From: Pseudarthrobacter enclensis
Lineage (GTDB): Bacteria > Actinomycetota > Actinomycetes > Actinomycetales > Micrococcaceae
DNA length: 64,000 nucleotides
Reading direction: 5' to 3'
Assembly (NCBI RefSeq): GCF_001457025.1
Contig: NZ_KQ758606.1
Location: 62,001-126,000 of the forward strand
The notes below the pieces were generated by a model. The model was not told where the DNA came from and did no database searches. It saw only the letters and a program-made list of their open reading frames with translations. The first letter of the stretch is position 1. Every line of letters begins with the position of its first letter. Below, one piece after another: positions 28,032-34,971 of the stretch. Both the position numbers and the translations under genes were made by a program.

Positions 28032-28640
28032 GTGACGTCCATCCCATTCCGCTCCGGCCCGGACCAGGCAGCGGCAGCCGAGCGCAGTGATGCCGCACGG
28101 AACCGGAAGCGGCTTCTGTGGGCCGCCAAGGAGCTCATTTCCGAATGCGGCGCCGGTGGCCTCACCATGGACCGCCTGGCCGAGCGTGCGGGCGTCGGCA
28201 AGGGGACGGTATTCCGCCGGTTCGGCAGCCGGGCAGGCCTGATGCTGGCGCTGCTCCATGACTCGGAGGTGGACTTCCAGTCACGCTTCATGTTCGGCCC
28301 GCCGCCGCTGGGCCCTGGTGCGCCGGCTCTGGAACGGCTGGTGGCCTTCGGCGCCGGGCGCATCGCCTATGTGGTCGAATTCGGTGACCTGGTCCTCGCC
28401 GCCGAGGACGCGTCGCGCGGCCGGTTCGATGTTCCCGCTGCCGCCCTGTGGCACCGGCATATTGAGGTACTGCTGGATGATGCAGGGTTCGACGCCGATT
28501 CCTGGCTGATGGCCGGATCCCTGGGCGCCGCGCTGGATCCCGAACGCCTCCTGGACCTGGTGCGGCGGCATGGGGTGGCCCCGGAACGCTTGGTTGCGTC
28601 CTGGCGCGATCTTGTGACACGCGTCGTAAGGCCTGCATAG
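28032..28640 (+). CDS. TetR family transcriptional regulator
   Basis: The 202-residue protein has a TetR HTH at about residues 18-65: LTMDRLAERAGVGKGTVFRRFGSR is the full signature. The C-terminal ligand domain is helical. The GTG start is preceded by TAGACT 7 nt away and no Shine-Dalgarno, so it is probably leaderless. It is the obvious regulator of the divergent FMN reductase. Confidence 0.85.
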   Translation: MTSIPFRSGPDQAAAAERSDAARNRKRLLWAAKELISECGAGGLTMDRLAERAGVGKGTVFRRFGSRAGLMLALLHDSEVDFQSRFMFGPPPLGPGAPALERLVAFGAGRIAYVVEFGDLVLAAEDASRGRFDVPAAALWHRHIEVLLDDAGFDADSWLMAGSLGAALDPERLLDLVRRHGVAPERLVASWRDLVTRVVRPA

Positions 28641-28804
28641 ATTAGTCCGCCGCGCTTGCAGCGTCCAGTCAAATCAACTTCACAGAATTATTCATAACAA
28701 TCTGATACGGCACTGCTCTTTTCCCGCCATTACCGGGCATCTTGCCTTTCGGGCTGTGATAGTTTCCTCTGGAATGTGACCCGCAACATAGTCCGCAAGG
28801 GCAG
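28641..28804. other. Intergenic DNA between TetR and peptide transporter operon
   Basis: This 164-bp first part of the 353-bp gap is AT-richer than its surroundings (for example 28672-28712). I see no coding frame and no certain terminator for the TetR gene; a promoter for the transporter operon should lie here, but I cannot place it confidently. The leader RNA candidate follows directly. Confidence 0.4.
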
Positions 28805-28891
28805 TTCCGAGAGGGAAGCGGGAGCCAGCTATCCGCTGGCAACGAACCCCGGTGACGCGGCACAACTCCCGCCCAACCGGGGAAGACGGAA
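28805..28891 (+). ncRNA. Possible structured leader RNA (pseudoknot) of the peptide transporter operon
   Basis: Complementary blocks suggest a compact fold: closing stem TTCCG (28805-28809) with CGGAA (28887-28891); GCGGGAG (28818-28824) with CTCCCGC (28866-28872); inner hairpin CCAGC-TATCC-GCTGG (28825-28839); and CCCCGGT (28847-28853) with ACCGGGG (28876-28882). The second and last helices cross, which would make a pseudoknot. The 3' side (GGGGAAGACGGAA) and GCTGGCAAC recall S-adenosylmethionine riboswitches, but I could not match any known class. It ends about 100 nt before the first permease start. Confidence 0.4.
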
Positions 28892-28993
28892 GGATCCAAC
28901 GCGTGATTGTTGTTTTGCCCCGCATTCCGGCACACCGGCGCCCATGGCTGTGTCCTGCACAGCAGCACGCGGCGGCGAAGCAGAAGTAGTCCC

Positions 28994-29977
28994 GTGCTCA
29001 AGTACCTCGCCAAGCGCGGCATCACGTACGTCTTCATGATCTTCCTGACCACTTCCGCCGGGTACTTCCTTGCCGTCAGCTCGCTGAAACCCGCGCTGCT
29101 CGAGCAGGAACGGATCCCGCGGCCCACCCCGGAGCAGGTGGCCAACTCGATGCGCCTCAAGGGCCTCGACCCGGACCTGAGCCCCTGGGAGCGCTACGTC
29201 CAATGGCTCACCGGCGTCGTGACCCGCTGGGACTGGGGCCGGAGCCCCAACGGGGCCTACATCAACGCAGAATTCGGGGACCGCGTGTGGATCTCCACCC
29301 GGTTGTTCCTGGCCTCCATCATCCTGACCCTCATCATCGGCGTTGCGCTCGGCGTGTATTCGGCGGCCCGGCAGTACAAGTTCCAGGACCGGGTCATCAC
29401 CTCCTACAGCTACCTGGCCTACATCGTCCCGGCTCCCATCGCCTACTTCCTGGTGCAGCTCGGCGCCATCAACATCAACGAAACGGTGGGGCAGCGGATC
29501 TTCTTCGTCACCGGCATATCCACTCCCGGGATGGAGCCGGGATGGGCGCAGGTGGTTGACATGGCCGCTCACTACGCGGTACCCACCGTGGCCATCACGC
29601 TGGTGGGCTGGGGCGCGTACCAGATCGCCCAGCGCCAGTACCTGCTGGACAACGTCAACGCAGACTTCGTCCGGACGGCCCGGGCCAAGGGACTGAGCAG
29701 GAACCAGGCAATCGCCCGGCACGCCCTGCGGGTCTCCTTCATCCCGGTGGCCCAAAGCATCGCGTTCACCATCCCGGCCATTTTCGCCGGGGGCTTCTTC
29801 GCCGAAAAGATCTTCGCCTGGCCGGGCGTAGGCTCCTGGAGCATCGACGCCATTTCCCTCCAGGACGTCAACGCGGCCACCGCCACCTTGGCCTACGGCT
29901 CAGTCATCTTTGCCCTGGGCGCCATCCTGGCCGACTTCGCCACCACCCTGGTGGACCCGAGAGTGCGGGTGCAGTAA
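28994..29977 (+). CDS. Peptide-type ABC transporter permease (DppB/OppB-like)
   Basis: The 327-residue permease starts at GTG 28994 (VLKYLAKRGITY); a longer frame upstream would run into the leader RNA. It has an N-terminal membrane helix, an extracytoplasmic region and the permease core with the EAA loop VRTARAKGLSRNQAIARHALR, followed by FAGGFFAEKIFAWPGVG typical of OppB/DppB. It is the first gene of the operon permease-permease-ATPase(fused)-binding protein and forms the channel with the next gene. The substrate is probably a peptide or similar oligomer. Confidence 0.88.
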   Translation: MLKYLAKRGITYVFMIFLTTSAGYFLAVSSLKPALLEQERIPRPTPEQVANSMRLKGLDPDLSPWERYVQWLTGVVTRWDWGRSPNGAYINAEFGDRVWISTRLFLASIILTLIIGVALGVYSAARQYKFQDRVITSYSYLAYIVPAPIAYFLVQLGAININETVGQRIFFVTGISTPGMEPGWAQVVDMAAHYAVPTVAITLVGWGAYQIAQRQYLLDNVNADFVRTARAKGLSRNQAIARHALRVSFIPVAQSIAFTIPAIFAGGFFAEKIFAWPGVGSWSIDAISLQDVNAATATLAYGSVIFALGAILADFATTLVDPRVRVQ

Positions 29978-29979
29978 CC

Positions 29980-30960
29980 ATGACCAACCTCAACGCAGTC
30001 GATCCCGCCGCCGCGGCACAGGACGCGCACCTGGACAGCGCCGACGTCGTCATTGGCAAGTCCACCATCATCTTCCGCCGCTTCATGCGGAACAAGACCG
30101 CCGTGGCCGGCCTGGTGATCTTCCTGGCACTGACCGTGTTCTCCTTCGTGGGCGGTTTCTTCACCACGTGGGACAAGGAAACGATCGACCCCTTCAACAT
30201 CGGCATGCCGCCCTCGGCCGAGCACTTCCTGGGAACCTCCCAGGCGGGCATCGACCTCTACGCCATGACGGTCGAAGGCACCCGCATCTCCATCCTGATC
30301 GGCCTGGTGGTGGGGCTCGTCTCAGTCCTGATCGCCGCCGTCTACGGCTGCACCATGGCGTACTTCGGCGGCAAGGTGGACAAGGTGATGCTCTTCGTCC
30401 TCGAAGCGCTCATCATGATGCCCGCCCTCCTGGTGGTGGCCGTGGCCACCAGCGGGGGGGGTGCCGGCCTCAAGCGGGACCTGCCCTCCTGGCTGCTGCT
30501 CATCATTGTGCTGCTGGTGTTCAGCTGGATGGGAACGGCCAGGCTCATCCGCTCCCTGTCCATGTCTTTGATGCAGCGGGACTTCGTGAAGGCGGCGCAG
30601 TACATGGGCGTACCGCCGCGGCGGATCGTCTGGCGCCACCTGGTGCCCAATATCGGCTCCCTGCTGGTCCTGGACATCACCCGCGGCGTCACCGGCGCCA
30701 TCCTCGCCGAGGTGGCCTTTTCCTTCATCGGCATCGGCATCAAGGTTCCGGACGTCAGCCTGGGCGTCCTGATCGGCGGGGCCACCTCCCAGGTGCAGAC
30801 CTTCCCGTGGATGTTCTGGGTGCCGCTGACCGTCATGTTCCTGCTTACCGGTTCCCTGGCCATGATGAACGATGGCCTGCGCGACGCGTTCGACCCCAGT
30901 TCAAGTTCCACAGGCAAAGCAAGGAAGGCCAGGAAGATCCGGGTGGAGAAGAGCAAATGA
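29980..30960 (+). CDS. Peptide-type ABC transporter permease (DppC/OppC-like)
   Basis: The 326-residue permease has the OppC-type N-terminal helix (FMRNKTAVAGLVIFLALTV), the HFLGTSQAGIDLYAMTVEGTRIS stretch, and EAA loop QRDFVKAAQYMGVPPRRIVWRHLVPN. Only 2 nt separate it from the OppB-type gene, and its TGA overlaps the ATG of the ATPase gene (ATGA). Short N- and C-terminal tails are basic and polar. Confidence 0.9.
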   Translation: MTNLNAVDPAAAAQDAHLDSADVVIGKSTIIFRRFMRNKTAVAGLVIFLALTVFSFVGGFFTTWDKETIDPFNIGMPPSAEHFLGTSQAGIDLYAMTVEGTRISILIGLVVGLVSVLIAAVYGCTMAYFGGKVDKVMLFVLEALIMMPALLVVAVATSGGGAGLKRDLPSWLLLIIVLLVFSWMGTARLIRSLSMSLMQRDFVKAAQYMGVPPRRIVWRHLVPNIGSLLVLDITRGVTGAILAEVAFSFIGIGIKVPDVSLGVLIGGATSQVQTFPWMFWVPLTVMFLLTGSLAMMNDGLRDAFDPSSSSTGKARKARKIRVEKSK

Positions 30961-33206
30961 GCAGCGAAACCACCACCGGCTCCGGCCCCACCGCGTCCGT
31001 CAACTCCACGGAGGACGCCGTCGAACGGCTGCACATCGCCGGCCTGCACGCACCCACCGACGCCGTGCTGTCCGTGCGGGACCTCAACGTCCGGTTCACC
31101 TCGGAAAACGGCGTAGTGCACGCGGTGCGCGGCGTGGACTTCGACCTCATGCCGGGCCGGACCCTGGGCATCGTGGGCGAGTCCGGCTCCGGGAAGTCCG
31201 TGACGTCGCTGGCCATCATGGGCCTGCTCCCCGAAACCGCCGAGGTCACCGGTTCGGTCAGGCTCCGCGGCCAGGAACTGCTGGGGCTCAGCGACAAGGC
31301 CATGTGCGGCTACCGCGGCAACGACATCGCCATGGTCTTCCAGGACCCGCTGTCCTCGCTCACGCCGGTGTACACCGTGGGCACCCAGATCATCGAAGCG
31401 CTGACCATCCACAACCCCACGATGAGCAAGCAGGCCAAGGAAGCCCGCGCCGTCGAACTCCTGGCCATGGTGGGAATCCCCAGCCCGAAGGCGCGGCTCA
31501 AGGCATTCCCGCACGAGTTCTCCGGCGGCATGCGCCAGCGCGTCATGATCGCCATCGCCATCGCCAACAACCCCCGCGTACTCATCGCGGACGAGCCCAC
31601 GACGGCGCTCGACGTCACCATCCAGGCCCAGGTCCTTGAGGTGCTCCACACCGCCCAGGAGGAAACCGGCGCCGCCGTCGTCATGATCACCCACGACCTC
31701 GGTGTGGTGGCGGGCATGGCCGACGACATCATGGTGATGTACGCGGGCAAACCGGTGGAAACCGGTGCCGTGGACGACATCTACTACAACCCGCGCATGC
31801 CCTACACCCTGGGCCTGCTGGGAGCCGTGCCGCGGGTGGACGTGGCGGAAAAGACGTCCTTGGTTCCCATCGACGGCCTGCCGCCAAACCTGTTGCACGC
31901 GCCCACCGGCTGCTCGTTCGCCCCACGGTGCCCGCTGGCGTCCGACGCCTGCCGTGACGGTGAGCCTCCCCTGGCCCCCGTTCCCGGCAGCGCGCTGCAC
32001 CACGCAGCGTGCATCAAGTCCGAGGCCCTGGGTGGGGACGTGGACGTCCACGACATCTTTGCCGCTCCGCCGGTGCCGGAATCCCGCTTCGACGCGATCC
32101 CGCGGACAGACCGCTCCACCGTGCTCCAGCTCAGGGACATCCGCAAGCATTTCCCGCTGACCAAGGGTGCGCTCATCAAGAAGCGCATCGGCACCGTCAA
32201 GGCTGTGGACGGGCTGAGCTTTGATATCCGCGAAGGCGAATGCTTTTCCATTGTGGGTGAATCCGGCTCCGGCAAGACCACCACGCTGCTGGAGATCATG
32301 GAGTTCCACAAGGACCAGGACGGCGAGGTGGTGATCGGCGGGCTGAGCAACAAGCAGGCCGCGGATGCCAGAACCAAGAGCGCCATGCGCCGGGAACTGC
32401 AGATGGTGTTCCAGGACCCCACCGGCGCCCTGGACCCCCGGTTCACGGTGTACGAGGTGCTGGCCGAGCCGCTGCAGAACGCGGGCATGGACCGGCCGGC
32501 CATCCGGACGCGGATCATGGAACTGATGAAGCTGGTCGGCCTGCAGCCGGATCACGTGAACCGGTTCCCCAACCAGTTCTCCGGCGGCCAGCGGCAGCGC
32601 ATCGGCATCGCCCGCGCCCTCGCCGTGAACCCGAAGCTGGTGGTCCTGGACGAGCCGGTATCCGCCCTCGACGTGTCGGTGCAGGCCGGCGTCATCAACC
32701 TCCTGGACAAGCTCCGCGCAGAACTGGGCCTGAGCTACCTCCTGGTGGCCCACGACCTCTCCGTTGTCCGCCACATCTCCAACCGCGTCGCGGTGATGTA
32801 CCTGGGCAAGATCGTGGAAATCGGCGAGGTGGACCGGGTCTTCGATAACCCCCGTCATCCCTACACCCGCGCCCTCCTCTCCGCCATCCCGGTACCGGAC
32901 CCCCAGGTGGAGCGCACCCGCGAACGCATCATCCTCAAGGGAGACCTGCCGTCCCCGCTTGATGCGCCGAAAGGCTGCAATTTTGCCACCCGCTGCCCGG
33001 TCTTCGCGGCCCTGCCTGCCGCCAAGCAGGAAAAGTGCCTGACCCTGGAACCTCCGCTGGAGGCCGTTGCCCCGTCCCAGGCGGCCCGGTCACTGCAACC
33101 GGAAGCGCCGGCGCTGGACCAGCAGTTTGCGTGTTTCTTCCCCGACGGGGAACTGGACGACGACATGCTCGTCACGCACGACCAGGCGGAACACCATGCC
33201 CCTTAG
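30957..33206 (+). CDS. Fused double ATPase of a peptide-type ABC transporter (OppD-OppF)
   Basis: The 749-residue protein joins two full ATPase domains. The first (about residues 35-345) has Walker A GESGSGKS, signature FSGGMRQR and Walker B VLIADEPTTALD. The second (about 385-720) has GESGSGKTT, FSGGQRQR and LVVLDEPVSALD. Each is followed by the OppD/F-type C-terminal Cys cluster (CSFAPRCPLASDAC and CNFATRCPVF). In most bacteria these are two proteins, so the fusion fixes 1:1 stoichiometry. It overlaps the OppC-type gene by 4 nt. A long antisense frame here is a shadow. Confidence 0.92.
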   Translation: MSSETTTGSGPTASVNSTEDAVERLHIAGLHAPTDAVLSVRDLNVRFTSENGVVHAVRGVDFDLMPGRTLGIVGESGSGKSVTSLAIMGLLPETAEVTGSVRLRGQELLGLSDKAMCGYRGNDIAMVFQDPLSSLTPVYTVGTQIIEALTIHNPTMSKQAKEARAVELLAMVGIPSPKARLKAFPHEFSGGMRQRVMIAIAIANNPRVLIADEPTTALDVTIQAQVLEVLHTAQEETGAAVVMITHDLGVVAGMADDIMVMYAGKPVETGAVDDIYYNPRMPYTLGLLGAVPRVDVAEKTSLVPIDGLPPNLLHAPTGCSFAPRCPLASDACRDGEPPLAPVPGSALHHAACIKSEALGGDVDVHDIFAAPPVPESRFDAIPRTDRSTVLQLRDIRKHFPLTKGALIKKRIGTVKAVDGLSFDIREGECFSIVGESGSGKTTTLLEIMEFHKDQDGEVVIGGLSNKQAADARTKSAMRRELQMVFQDPTGALDPRFTVYEVLAEPLQNAGMDRPAIRTRIMELMKLVGLQPDHVNRFPNQFSGGQRQRIGIARALAVNPKLVVLDEPVSALDVSVQAGVINLLDKLRAELGLSYLLVAHDLSVVRHISNRVAVMYLGKIVEIGEVDRVFDNPRHPYTRALLSAIPVPDPQVERTRERIILKGDLPSPLDAPKGCNFATRCPVFAALPAAKQEKCLTLEPPLEAVAPSQAARSLQPEAPALDQQFACFFPDGELDDDMLVTHDQAEHHAP

Positions 33207-33255: not shown

Positions 33256-34971
33256 ATGAGGAATCTGAACAGGATCGGCGGAGCGGCAGCCATTGCTGCG
33301 GCTCTGGCGCTGACCGCCTGCGGCTCTGGCGGCTCCACGGGGCCGGAGACAGCCAAGGGCCAGGAGGCAGGCAGCGACCTGTCCAAGCTGATCAGCATCA
33401 ACGAAAAGCCGGCAGCCGATCTTGAGCAGGGCGGCAAGGTCACCCTTCCGCTGGGCAACATCGGCCCGGACTTCAACGGCTTCTCCAATAACGGCAACAG
33501 CGCGGACAACTCCGCCCTGCAGATCCCGATGAACCCGGTGGCCATGAACAGCGGCGGCATCGGCGGTTGCTGGAAGGTCGACTTCGTCGGCAAGGTCACC
33601 GCCAACCCGGACTTCTGCGAATCCGTGGACAGCGAAGTCAAGGACGGCAAGCAGACCATCACCATCAAGGTCAACCCCAAGGCCACCTACAACGACGGCA
33701 CGCCCATCGACGTGAAGGCCTTCCAGAACACCTGGAACATCCTCAAGAGCCCGGACAACGGCTACGACATCGTCAGCTCCGGCGCGTACCAGTTCGTCGA
33801 ATCGGTTGAGGCCGGCAGCAGCGACAAGGAAGTCATCGTCAAGACCACCCAGCCGGTGTACCCGGTTGATTCGCTCTTCTTCGGCCTGATCCACCCGGCC
33901 GTGAACAGCCCCGAGGTCTTCAACGAAGGCTTCAACGGCAACATGCACCCCGAGTGGATGGCCGGGCCCTTCAAGCTGGACCAGTACGATCCCGCCGCGA
34001 AGACCGTGACCATGGTTCCCAATGACAAGTGGTGGGGCAACAAGCCGGTCCTGGCCAACGTCACCTTCCGCCAGCTGGAAAGCAGCGCGCAGATCGCGGC
34101 GTTCAAGAACGGTGAAATCGACGCCGTCTCCGCCAACACCATCACCCCGTACAAGCAGCTCGAAGGCACCAAGGACGCGGACATCCGCCGCGGCCAGCGC
34201 CTCTTCGCCGGCGGCATGAACATCAACGCCCAGAAGATCACCGACGTCGCCGTCCGCAAGGCCATCTTTGCCGCCGTCGACCGCGAAGCCCTCCGCAAGG
34301 TGCGCTTCAACGGCCTGAACTGGGAAGAGCCCAGCTCCGGCTCCATGATGCTGCTGCCGTTCTCCGAGTACTACCAGGACAACTACCCCGTCAAGGAAAC
34401 CGGTCCTGACGCCGCCAAGAAGGCCCTCACGGACGCCGGCTACGCTCCGAACGCCAACGGCATCATGGAAAAGGACGGCAAGCCTGCCGCCTTCAAGATC
34501 AGCAACTTCGGTGACGATCCCACCACCCTGGCCTTCACCCAGACCCTGCAGAAGCAGCTGCAGGCCGGCGGCATGGACGTTGGCATCGACCAGCGCGCTT
34601 CCGCCGATTTCGGCAAGGTCATCGGCGGCCGCGACTTCGACATGAGCGTCTCCGGCTACACCGTGGGCCCGGACGCCACGGATGCCGTGAAGCAGTACTA
34701 CGACTCCAAGACGAACGAAAACCAGCTGGGCGACGCCGAGCTGGACAAGAAGATCGCCGACCTCGCTTCCATCGAGGACAACGCCGAACGCAACAAGGCG
34801 GCCATGGAGGTCGAAAAGGAGCACATGGCGAAGTACTTCTCCATGGGCGTGGTCATGAACGGCCCGCAGATTTCCTTCGTCCGCACGGGCCTCGCCAACT
34901 ACGGCCCGTCGCTGTTCCAGAGCCTGTCCCAGGTCCCGGACTGGACCACCCTGGGTTGGGAAAAGAAGTAA
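33256..34971 (+). CDS. Extracellular solute-binding lipoprotein, family 5
   Basis: The 571-residue lipoprotein has a signal peptide with lipobox LTAC (Cys about 22) and a large family-5 binding fold: IPMNPVAMNS, the TYNDGTPIDVKAFQNTW segment typical of DppA/OppA, and the FFGLIHPAV region. ATG 33256 is chosen since AAGGGAAAA precedes it. It is the last gene of the operon, ended by a strong terminator. Two Cys near residues 102 and 117 (GGCWKVDF and DFCES) may form a disulfide. The ligand is likely a peptide, not determined. Confidence 0.88.
   Translation: MRNLNRIGGAAAIAAALALTACGSGGSTGPETAKGQEAGSDLSKLISINEKPAADLEQGGKVTLPLGNIGPDFNGFSNNGNSADNSALQIPMNPVAMNSGGIGGCWKVDFVGKVTANPDFCESVDSEVKDGKQTITIKVNPKATYNDGTPIDVKAFQNTWNILKSPDNGYDIVSSGAYQFVESVEAGSSDKEVIVKTTQPVYPVDSLFFGLIHPAVNSPEVFNEGFNGNMHPEWMAGPFKLDQYDPAAKTVTMVPNDKWWGNKPVLANVTFRQLESSAQIAAFKNGEIDAVSANTITPYKQLEGTKDADIRRGQRLFAGGMNINAQKITDVAVRKAIFAAVDREALRKVRFNGLNWEEPSSGSMMLLPFSEYYQDNYPVKETGPDAAKKALTDAGYAPNANGIMEKDGKPAAFKISNFGDDPTTLAFTQTLQKQLQAGGMDVGIDQRASADFGKVIGGRDFDMSVSGYTVGPDATDAVKQYYDSKTNENQLGDAELDKKIADLASIEDNAERNKAAMEVEKEHMAKYFSMGVVMNGPQISFVRTGLANYGPSLFQSLSQVPDWTTLGWEKK

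Follow-up and report, generated by a model that had tools for sequence, protein, structure and literature searches.

A lineage-restricted folded leader and a candidate CRP/GlxR-type operator upstream of a peptide-type ABC transporter operon in Pseudarthrobacter enclensis

What lies in the gap that precedes a peptide-type transporter operon, and at which level might it act? The question arose in the window, a 64,000-nt stretch of the Pseudarthrobacter enclensis genome (contig NZ_KQ758606.1, positions 62,001 to 126,000), where a sequence-only reading had drawn four complementary blocks within 87 nt (28805 to 28891), let two of the helices cross in a pseudoknot and proposed a possible riboswitch of a new class. 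It had also placed the element before a peptide-type transporter operon, and the genes found there agree with this assignment.

28994-29977, + strand: OppB-like ABC permease (GTG start, MLKYLAKR...; PF00528, 1.1e-30)
29980-30960, + strand: OppC-like ABC permease (PF00528 and PF12911)
30957-33206, + strand: fused tandem ABC ATPase, an open frame (start MSSETTTG) with two GESGSGK motifs seen by eye alone
33265-34971, + strand: family 5 solute-binding protein (PF00496, 7.7e-50)

When exact positions were checked, all eight strands of the four blocks lay where they had been claimed.

TTCCG at 28805 with CGGAA at 28887
GCGGGAG at 28818 with CTCCCGC at 28866, the crossing pair
CCAGC at 28825 with GCTGG at 28835
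CCCCGGT at 28847 with ACCGGGG at 28876

For the development of a pair score, the total number of pairs was counted in up to four non-overlapping maximal perfect helices of at least 5 pairs each. The 87-nt stretch scored 19, a value that was also attained by 13 of 500 dinucleotide shuffles of the stretch and by 42 of 400 random 87-nt windows from the same GC-rich 64 kb. Its single-sequence fold was mildly stable (z of -1.56), seven relatives folded alone gave z-scores from -2.20 to +1.18, and most of the single sequences tested folded no better than shuffles. Thus, the complementary blocks are unremarkable by themselves.

Comparison of relatives was more informative about the fold. The alignment comprised 61 loci from one genus (Arthrobacter/Pseudarthrobacter), each upstream of the same OppB-like permease; L005, a near-copy of L004, and repeat loci from the same genomes were excluded. 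In a strand-swap test, the strands of each helix were exchanged between loci in 2000 swaps, with phylogeny ignored, and five helices (P1, Pa, Pb, P3 and P4) were supported.

28780-28784, + strand: 5' strand of P1, CCCGC, pairing with GCGGG at 28818-28822 (2/2000 swaps as good as native)
28818-28822, + strand: 3' strand of P1, GCGGG, partner of CCCGC at 28780-28784
28791-28802, + strand: hairpin Pa, GTCC-GCAA-GGGC (98.8% of cells paired; 0/2000 swaps as good)
28805-28817, + strand: hairpin Pb, TTCC-GAGAG-GGAA (1/2000 swaps as good)
28824-28840, + strand: hairpin P3, GCCAGC-TATCC-GCTGGC (93.4% of cells paired; 22/2000 swaps as good)
28847-28882, + strand: two-part hairpin P4, with CCCCGGT/ACCGGGG outside and GCGG (28857-28860)/CCGC (28869-28872) inside (halves, 1/2000 swaps as good; 85.4% of outer and 77.7% of inner cells paired)

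By this comparison, P1 encloses Pa and Pb and is followed by P3 and P4, and the 3' end of P4 lies 5 nt upstream of the Shine-Dalgarno sequence. In P1, compensatory pairs occurred as CCTGC/GCAGG in L051, L052 and L057 and as TCCGC/GCGGA in L061 and L067, which amounts to about three events on the permease tree; an uncompensated mismatch within the five core pairs was present in 7 of the 61 loci (L028, L036, L046, L048, L065, L066 and L068). The Pb stem reads GCCC/GGGC in many relatives, and the low proportion of Pb cells that pair in the column count (70.5%) reflects poor alignment at this hairpin. Over the 35 counted pairs, which include four from a TTCC/GGAA palindrome outside the claimed fold that is not claimed as RNA, both-side changes were found at 14, compared with 8.6 in shuffles (1 of 500 shuffles reached 14). 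In addition, 85.7% of cells paired, compared with at most 54% when the partners were slid. The number of cells changed on both sides was less telling, at 36 versus 27.5 in shuffles, since 40 of the 500 shuffles attained 36. Like the strand swaps, these counts make no correction for kinship among the loci. For 14 close relatives, the covariation term from RNAalifold was slightly unfavorable (+0.49).

A covariance check on orthologous upstream regions had been suggested together with the four helices, and it divided them. CCAGC/GCTGG and CCCCGGT/ACCGGGG held up as parts of P3 and P4, and compensatory changes supported all five helices listed above, while the other two that had been drawn gained no support. 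For the closing helix TTCCG/CGGAA, 705 of 2000 strand swaps paired as well as the native strands, and its TTCCG falls within Pb, where it is paired locally. For GCGGGAG/CTCCCGC, 910 of 2000 swaps equaled the native helix, and 69% of cells paired, whereas the two accepted helices reached 93% and 85%. Comparison thus gives the crossing helix zero support, and the proposed pseudoknot falls. A pseudoknot of this helix with CCCCGGT/ACCGGGG would have perfect 7 + 7 pairs in the window itself to recommend it; however, both strands of the crossing helix have better-supported partners, and we regard its formation as very improbable. What did stand is the broader proposal of a structured RNA kept by evolution in the 5' leader of the operon, which the compensatory changes across relatives bear out. 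Judged from these comparisons, the stretch appears to be a genuine RNA leader whose fold evolution has maintained, restricted to one lineage and absent from Rfam.

In the 61 loci, the most conserved sequence adjoins the fold on its upstream side, before the 87-nt stretch begins, and consists of an extended -10 promoter (TGATAGTTT) followed by AATGTGA-N6-ACATA.

28757-28765, + strand: extended -10 element TG-A-TAGTTT (TGN-TANNNT), conserved in relatives
28773-28790, no strand assigned: CRP/GlxR-like operator AATGTGA-CCCGCA-ACATA, overlapping the predicted transcript start

The extended -10 element was not listed by a simple sigma-70 scan; from its position, transcription is predicted to start at about 28771-28773. 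A wider set of 124 distinct regions was selected by a pattern demanding the extended -10 element or TGAGAGTTT, together with the left half ATGTGA, so the promoter conservation in this set is partly circular. Among these pattern-selected regions, the -10 hexamers were TAGTTT, TAGCTT, TACTTT, TAATTT, TATTTT, TAGTCT, TAGTGT, TAGATT, TACATT and one GAGTTT, and the spacing from the extended -10 element to ATGTGA was 8 nt in 112. ATGTGA was present in 60 of the 61 aligned leaders, with GTGTGA in L036. Of the 124 regions, all selected for ATGTGA, 120 also had a right half NCAYA, and the 6-base spacer between the halves took twelve different forms. The right half is mostly ACATA, compared with TCACA in the palindrome TGTGA-N6-TCACA, and is GCACA in g40 and in L109, L110 and L210.

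Two other genera, g40 and g47, carried the extended -10 element in 8/8 leaders, and the -10 element with AATGTGA preceded the orthologous permease in 4/4 genomes of each; their right halves were GCACA in five cases, CATA-type in two and irregular in one. The box was missing from nine g24 leaders, one g30 leader and one g34 leader. In four g24 loci (L246 to L249), the orthologous operon had, by eye, a different and more ordinary-looking promoter region (TATACT) and no box.

The P. enclensis genome encodes a CRP/FNR-family relative of solved structures (3mzh, E of 1.3e-80; 4byy and 4cyd, 1e-75), which we take to be Mycobacterium tuberculosis CRP and Corynebacterium glutamicum GlxR. Three perfect TGTGA-N6-TCACA sites were found in the genome, compared with one in the control, and thus a CRP regulon was not recovered. 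The box resembles CRP/GlxR-type operators, whose GlxR consensus is given as TGTGANNTANNTCACA in the available part of PMC4254451, in its TGTGA-N6 and in a right half with the C, the A and the last A of TCACA. It differs from such operators in the mostly ACATA right half, in its inferred position at about +10 and in a spacer that doubles as a strand of an RNA helix. According to the same part of that source, GlxR is mostly an activator (PMC4254451). We infer that 28773-28790 is a candidate site for a CRP/GlxR-type protein. The box could instead be an RNA stem only (UGUG/CAUA); however, the invariant flanking A bases suit a protein site better. A TetR operator was also considered and is disfavored, the box being kept in g40 and g47, for which a search of about 2.2 kb upstream of seven loci gave no TetR homologue. 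If the candidate site is real, DNA and RNA functions overlap here, since the operator spacer CCCGCA also contains the 5' strand of P1.

The element has a narrow distribution. A DNA search matched 15 of 59 genomes (the P. enclensis genome included), all of one genus, and covariance model R1, at E<1e-6, found it in 54 of 395 genomes of the family, none of them outside the same genus. The extended model R2, whose source alignment included many of the species later found with it, matched 8 of 347 genomes and 1 of 104 genera at E<=0.01. Weaker R1 matches (21 rows, E of 7e-4 to 0.1) were attributed to chance, as nine of these loci re-searched with R2 gave E>=0.065 or no match. Strong matches occurred once per genome, with the same OppB-like permease downstream in the loci read; in the fifteen first loci, the gene order by eye was an FMN reductase on the opposite strand, a TetR gene, the element and the permease. 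Thirty-seven further genomes of the genus had been negative, 20 with R1 and 17 in the DNA search. R2 matched 28 of them at E<=0.1, the identical 28 have the orthologous permease, and the other 9 have neither; in two of the 28 (G005 and G408), the R2 match covers the promoter box and a short 5' hairpin only. Among the best 80 of 225 relatives, the named permease-carrying contigs belonged to Arthrobacter, Pseudarthrobacter and Paenarthrobacter species and to one Micrococcaceae MAG, and the upstream stretch matched at E<=6.1e-4 in 79 of these 80 named loci; the remaining one, L196, has just 72 nt of upstream sequence. Two permease copies were unusual: the frame in L010 (genome G017) is apparently shifted after MLKYLA, and the copy in L139 (genome G030) looks broken or incomplete, since its match spans residues 82-234 only.

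Outside the main clade, the fold is altered or lost. By eye, the Paenarthrobacter-type clade keeps the box, a possible P1, two other hairpins and the Shine-Dalgarno sequence, while most letters, including most of the unpaired core, differ; the swap test for P1 in the divergent clade is weak (184/2000). R2 weakly matched 6 of the 8 g40 and g47 leaders in a 4.8-kb search (best E of 2.6e-4). The four g40 matches span just 69-72 nt, and most of the fold is thus absent in g40. The folded part is also absent in L195, L211 and L110. A hairpin shortly before GGAAGGA was noted by eye, uncounted, in both the main and the Paenarthrobacter-type clade and in L206, L209 and L210, with L195, L211 and L110 as the exceptions. 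These three loci keep the promoter and operator despite the loss of the fold (L195 at 937-989, with the Shine-Dalgarno sequence also kept) and could be used as natural mutants of the leader. In L210 (Arthrobacter cupressi), the fold has given way to another insert of greater length, whose strong GC hairpin immediately precedes the Shine-Dalgarno sequence.

Downstream of P4, the leader contains two further features.

28888-28894, + strand: Shine-Dalgarno sequence GGAAGGA, located 8 nt ahead of the upstream ORF and present in 61/61 aligned loci
28903-28989, + strand: upstream ORF of 28 codons, VIVVLPRIPAHRRPWLCPAQQHAAAKQK, ending 4 nt short of the permease start

The gap had been described as otherwise non-coding. 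The 87-nt stretch itself does look non-coding, but the gap is not empty, as this ORF lies inside it. Coding by the element was considered and rejected: one frame is open in some loci, yet indels shift the frame, and lengths fall in all modulo-3 classes (promoter-to-Shine-Dalgarno distances, 26/19/15 over 60 loci). For the ORF search, a stop near the permease start was demanded, and 60 of the 61 loci were parsed (L036, with GTGTGA, was missed by the pattern). An ORF of 28-33 codons behind the Shine-Dalgarno sequence, ending 1-12 nt before the permease, was found in 51 of the 60; the other nine have no ORF, and the permease begins 20 nt after the start of the Shine-Dalgarno sequence. Presence and absence of the ORF require four steps on the permease tree. 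All four g40 leaders have a 29-codon ORF that shares 4 nt (GTGA) with the permease start, and candidate ORFs of 21-23 codons were found in two of the four g47 leaders and none in the other two. The ORF is conserved and short, has a Shine-Dalgarno sequence and terminates at the downstream start or beside it, as expected of a coupled ORF, and on a plain reading it would be translationally coupled to the permease. The Shine-Dalgarno sequence was predicted to be unpaired with a mean of 0.53 (at least 0.5 in 34/61 loci and below 0.2 in 2/61). Such a site, moderately open in the predicted ensembles, does not point to a switch that is strictly off by default.

Does the leader belong to a known class? 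The Rfam comparison that the sequence-only reading had recommended gave no family in the window or in ten further loci. Rfam 15, including the SAM riboswitches, had no match in the window at the gathering score; two matches near the site had E of 2.7 and 3.7, far below gathering, and no match was found at E up to 0.5 in the ten loci, mostly divergent relatives. A resemblance to SAM-binding RNAs had been noted with reservations. The window does share the letters GCTGGCAAC with SAM-I/SAM-IV riboswitches, but these letters are present in only 3 of 61 relatives (L001, L038 and L042) and no Rfam family matched, and the resemblance does not survive. From the available part of its description, the ilvB-II motif of Corynebacterium is likewise a conserved leader in which a conserved short ORF precedes an operon (PMC10272879); here, by contrast, the ORF follows a separate folded domain, and no single-codon run suggesting attenuation was seen by eye. 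Among the matches listed in the open literature, as far as their accessible text goes, none describes the present leader.

The reading that we favor, with a probability of about 0.55, is a lineage-restricted structured 5' leader near the ribosome-binding site of an opp-type transporter mRNA, under a CRP-type promoter; judging from the sequence comparisons, the leader most likely acts at translation initiation of the operon. Transcription would start near 28771 from the extended -10 promoter, and a CRP/GlxR-type protein bound to AATGTGA-N6-NCAYA over the first transcribed bases would block or tune initiation. The leader would then control or protect translation initiation, with a hairpin held just upstream of the ribosome-binding site, and ribosomes would translate the short ORF and reach the permease by coupling. 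If only the DNA mattered, the promoter and CRP-type operator would do the work and the hairpins would be a passive spacer in GC-rich sequence. This would fit the promoter and operator being most conserved and persisting in other genera and in the natural fold losses, as well as the 42 of 400 random windows with equal complementary pairs and the single sequences that fold much like shuffles. However, the compensatory changes in five helices exceed what strand swaps and slid partners give, which makes a DNA-only element rather unlikely.

A new translational riboswitch class sensing a small-molecule substrate of the transporter (a peptide, an amino acid or another compound), in which the five-helix fold would be the aptamer and P4 and the Shine-Dalgarno sequence the expression platform, would account for a maintained multi-helix fold right before the Shine-Dalgarno sequence of a transporter operon, for the lack of an Rfam family and for unpaired bases that, by eye, are conserved in the main clade (ACCCG in the P3 loop, for example). 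Metabolite riboswitches usually, though not always, have a core conserved across distant hosts or several genes. Here, strong matches are confined to one genus and, in the loci read, to a single operon; the unpaired core is mostly different in the Paenarthrobacter-type clade (by eye), and the fold is lost in sister clades (L195, L211 and L110, with another hairpin in L210). Moreover, no consistent state sequestering the Shine-Dalgarno sequence was predicted in the 61 loci, and no terminator was found. Thus, of the proposed new riboswitch class, a conserved RNA that matches no Rfam family remains, while a metabolite riboswitch is disfavored by the restriction to one operon and one genus and by the loss of the fold in several lineages, and we consider it unlikely. 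Recognition of the leader by an ANTAR-type or other RNA-binding protein, or a function as RNA thermometer, appears still more doubtful. In the available part of PMC8164766, ANTAR RNAs are common in actinobacteria, including Arthrobacter, and are linked to ABC transporters, and the accessible text of PMC12857270 and PMC11342760 describes ROSE-like elements at ABC transporter genes. However, the ANTAR target is described as two stem-loops having hexanucleotide loops with A1 and G4, with 3-pair stems allowed (PMC8164766, available part), and none of the 61 sequences has a hairpin of at least 4 pairs with an AnnGnn six-base loop. In ROSE and fourU thermometers, as the accessible text of PMC12857270 presents them, the Shine-Dalgarno sequence is base-paired in the 3' hairpin, whereas here it lies outside P4, although its predicted openness is only moderate.

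The favored leader would add a structured mRNA leader absent from Rfam for a common group of soil bacteria, and the losses, the alternative form in the sister clade and the presence or absence of the ORF provide a comparative series for its function. A more tentative possibility is a double-use DNA/RNA element, in which the operator spacer is a strand of the leader helix and control is shared and co-evolving; the folded leader may possibly be an undescribed substrate sensor (a riboswitch or protein-bound). Regulation of the transporter at the transcriptional and the post-transcriptional level would, with a double-use element, draw on shared bases, and the CRP-like operator overlapping an RNA helix offers a testable case of such sharing. 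A GlxR-like input, if true, would put the uptake system under cAMP control.

A sigma-70-like candidate (GTGACA/TAGATT; 0.2 expected) is also present at the end of the TetR gene, at 28614-28643, from which a longer transcript that runs through the leader could begin.
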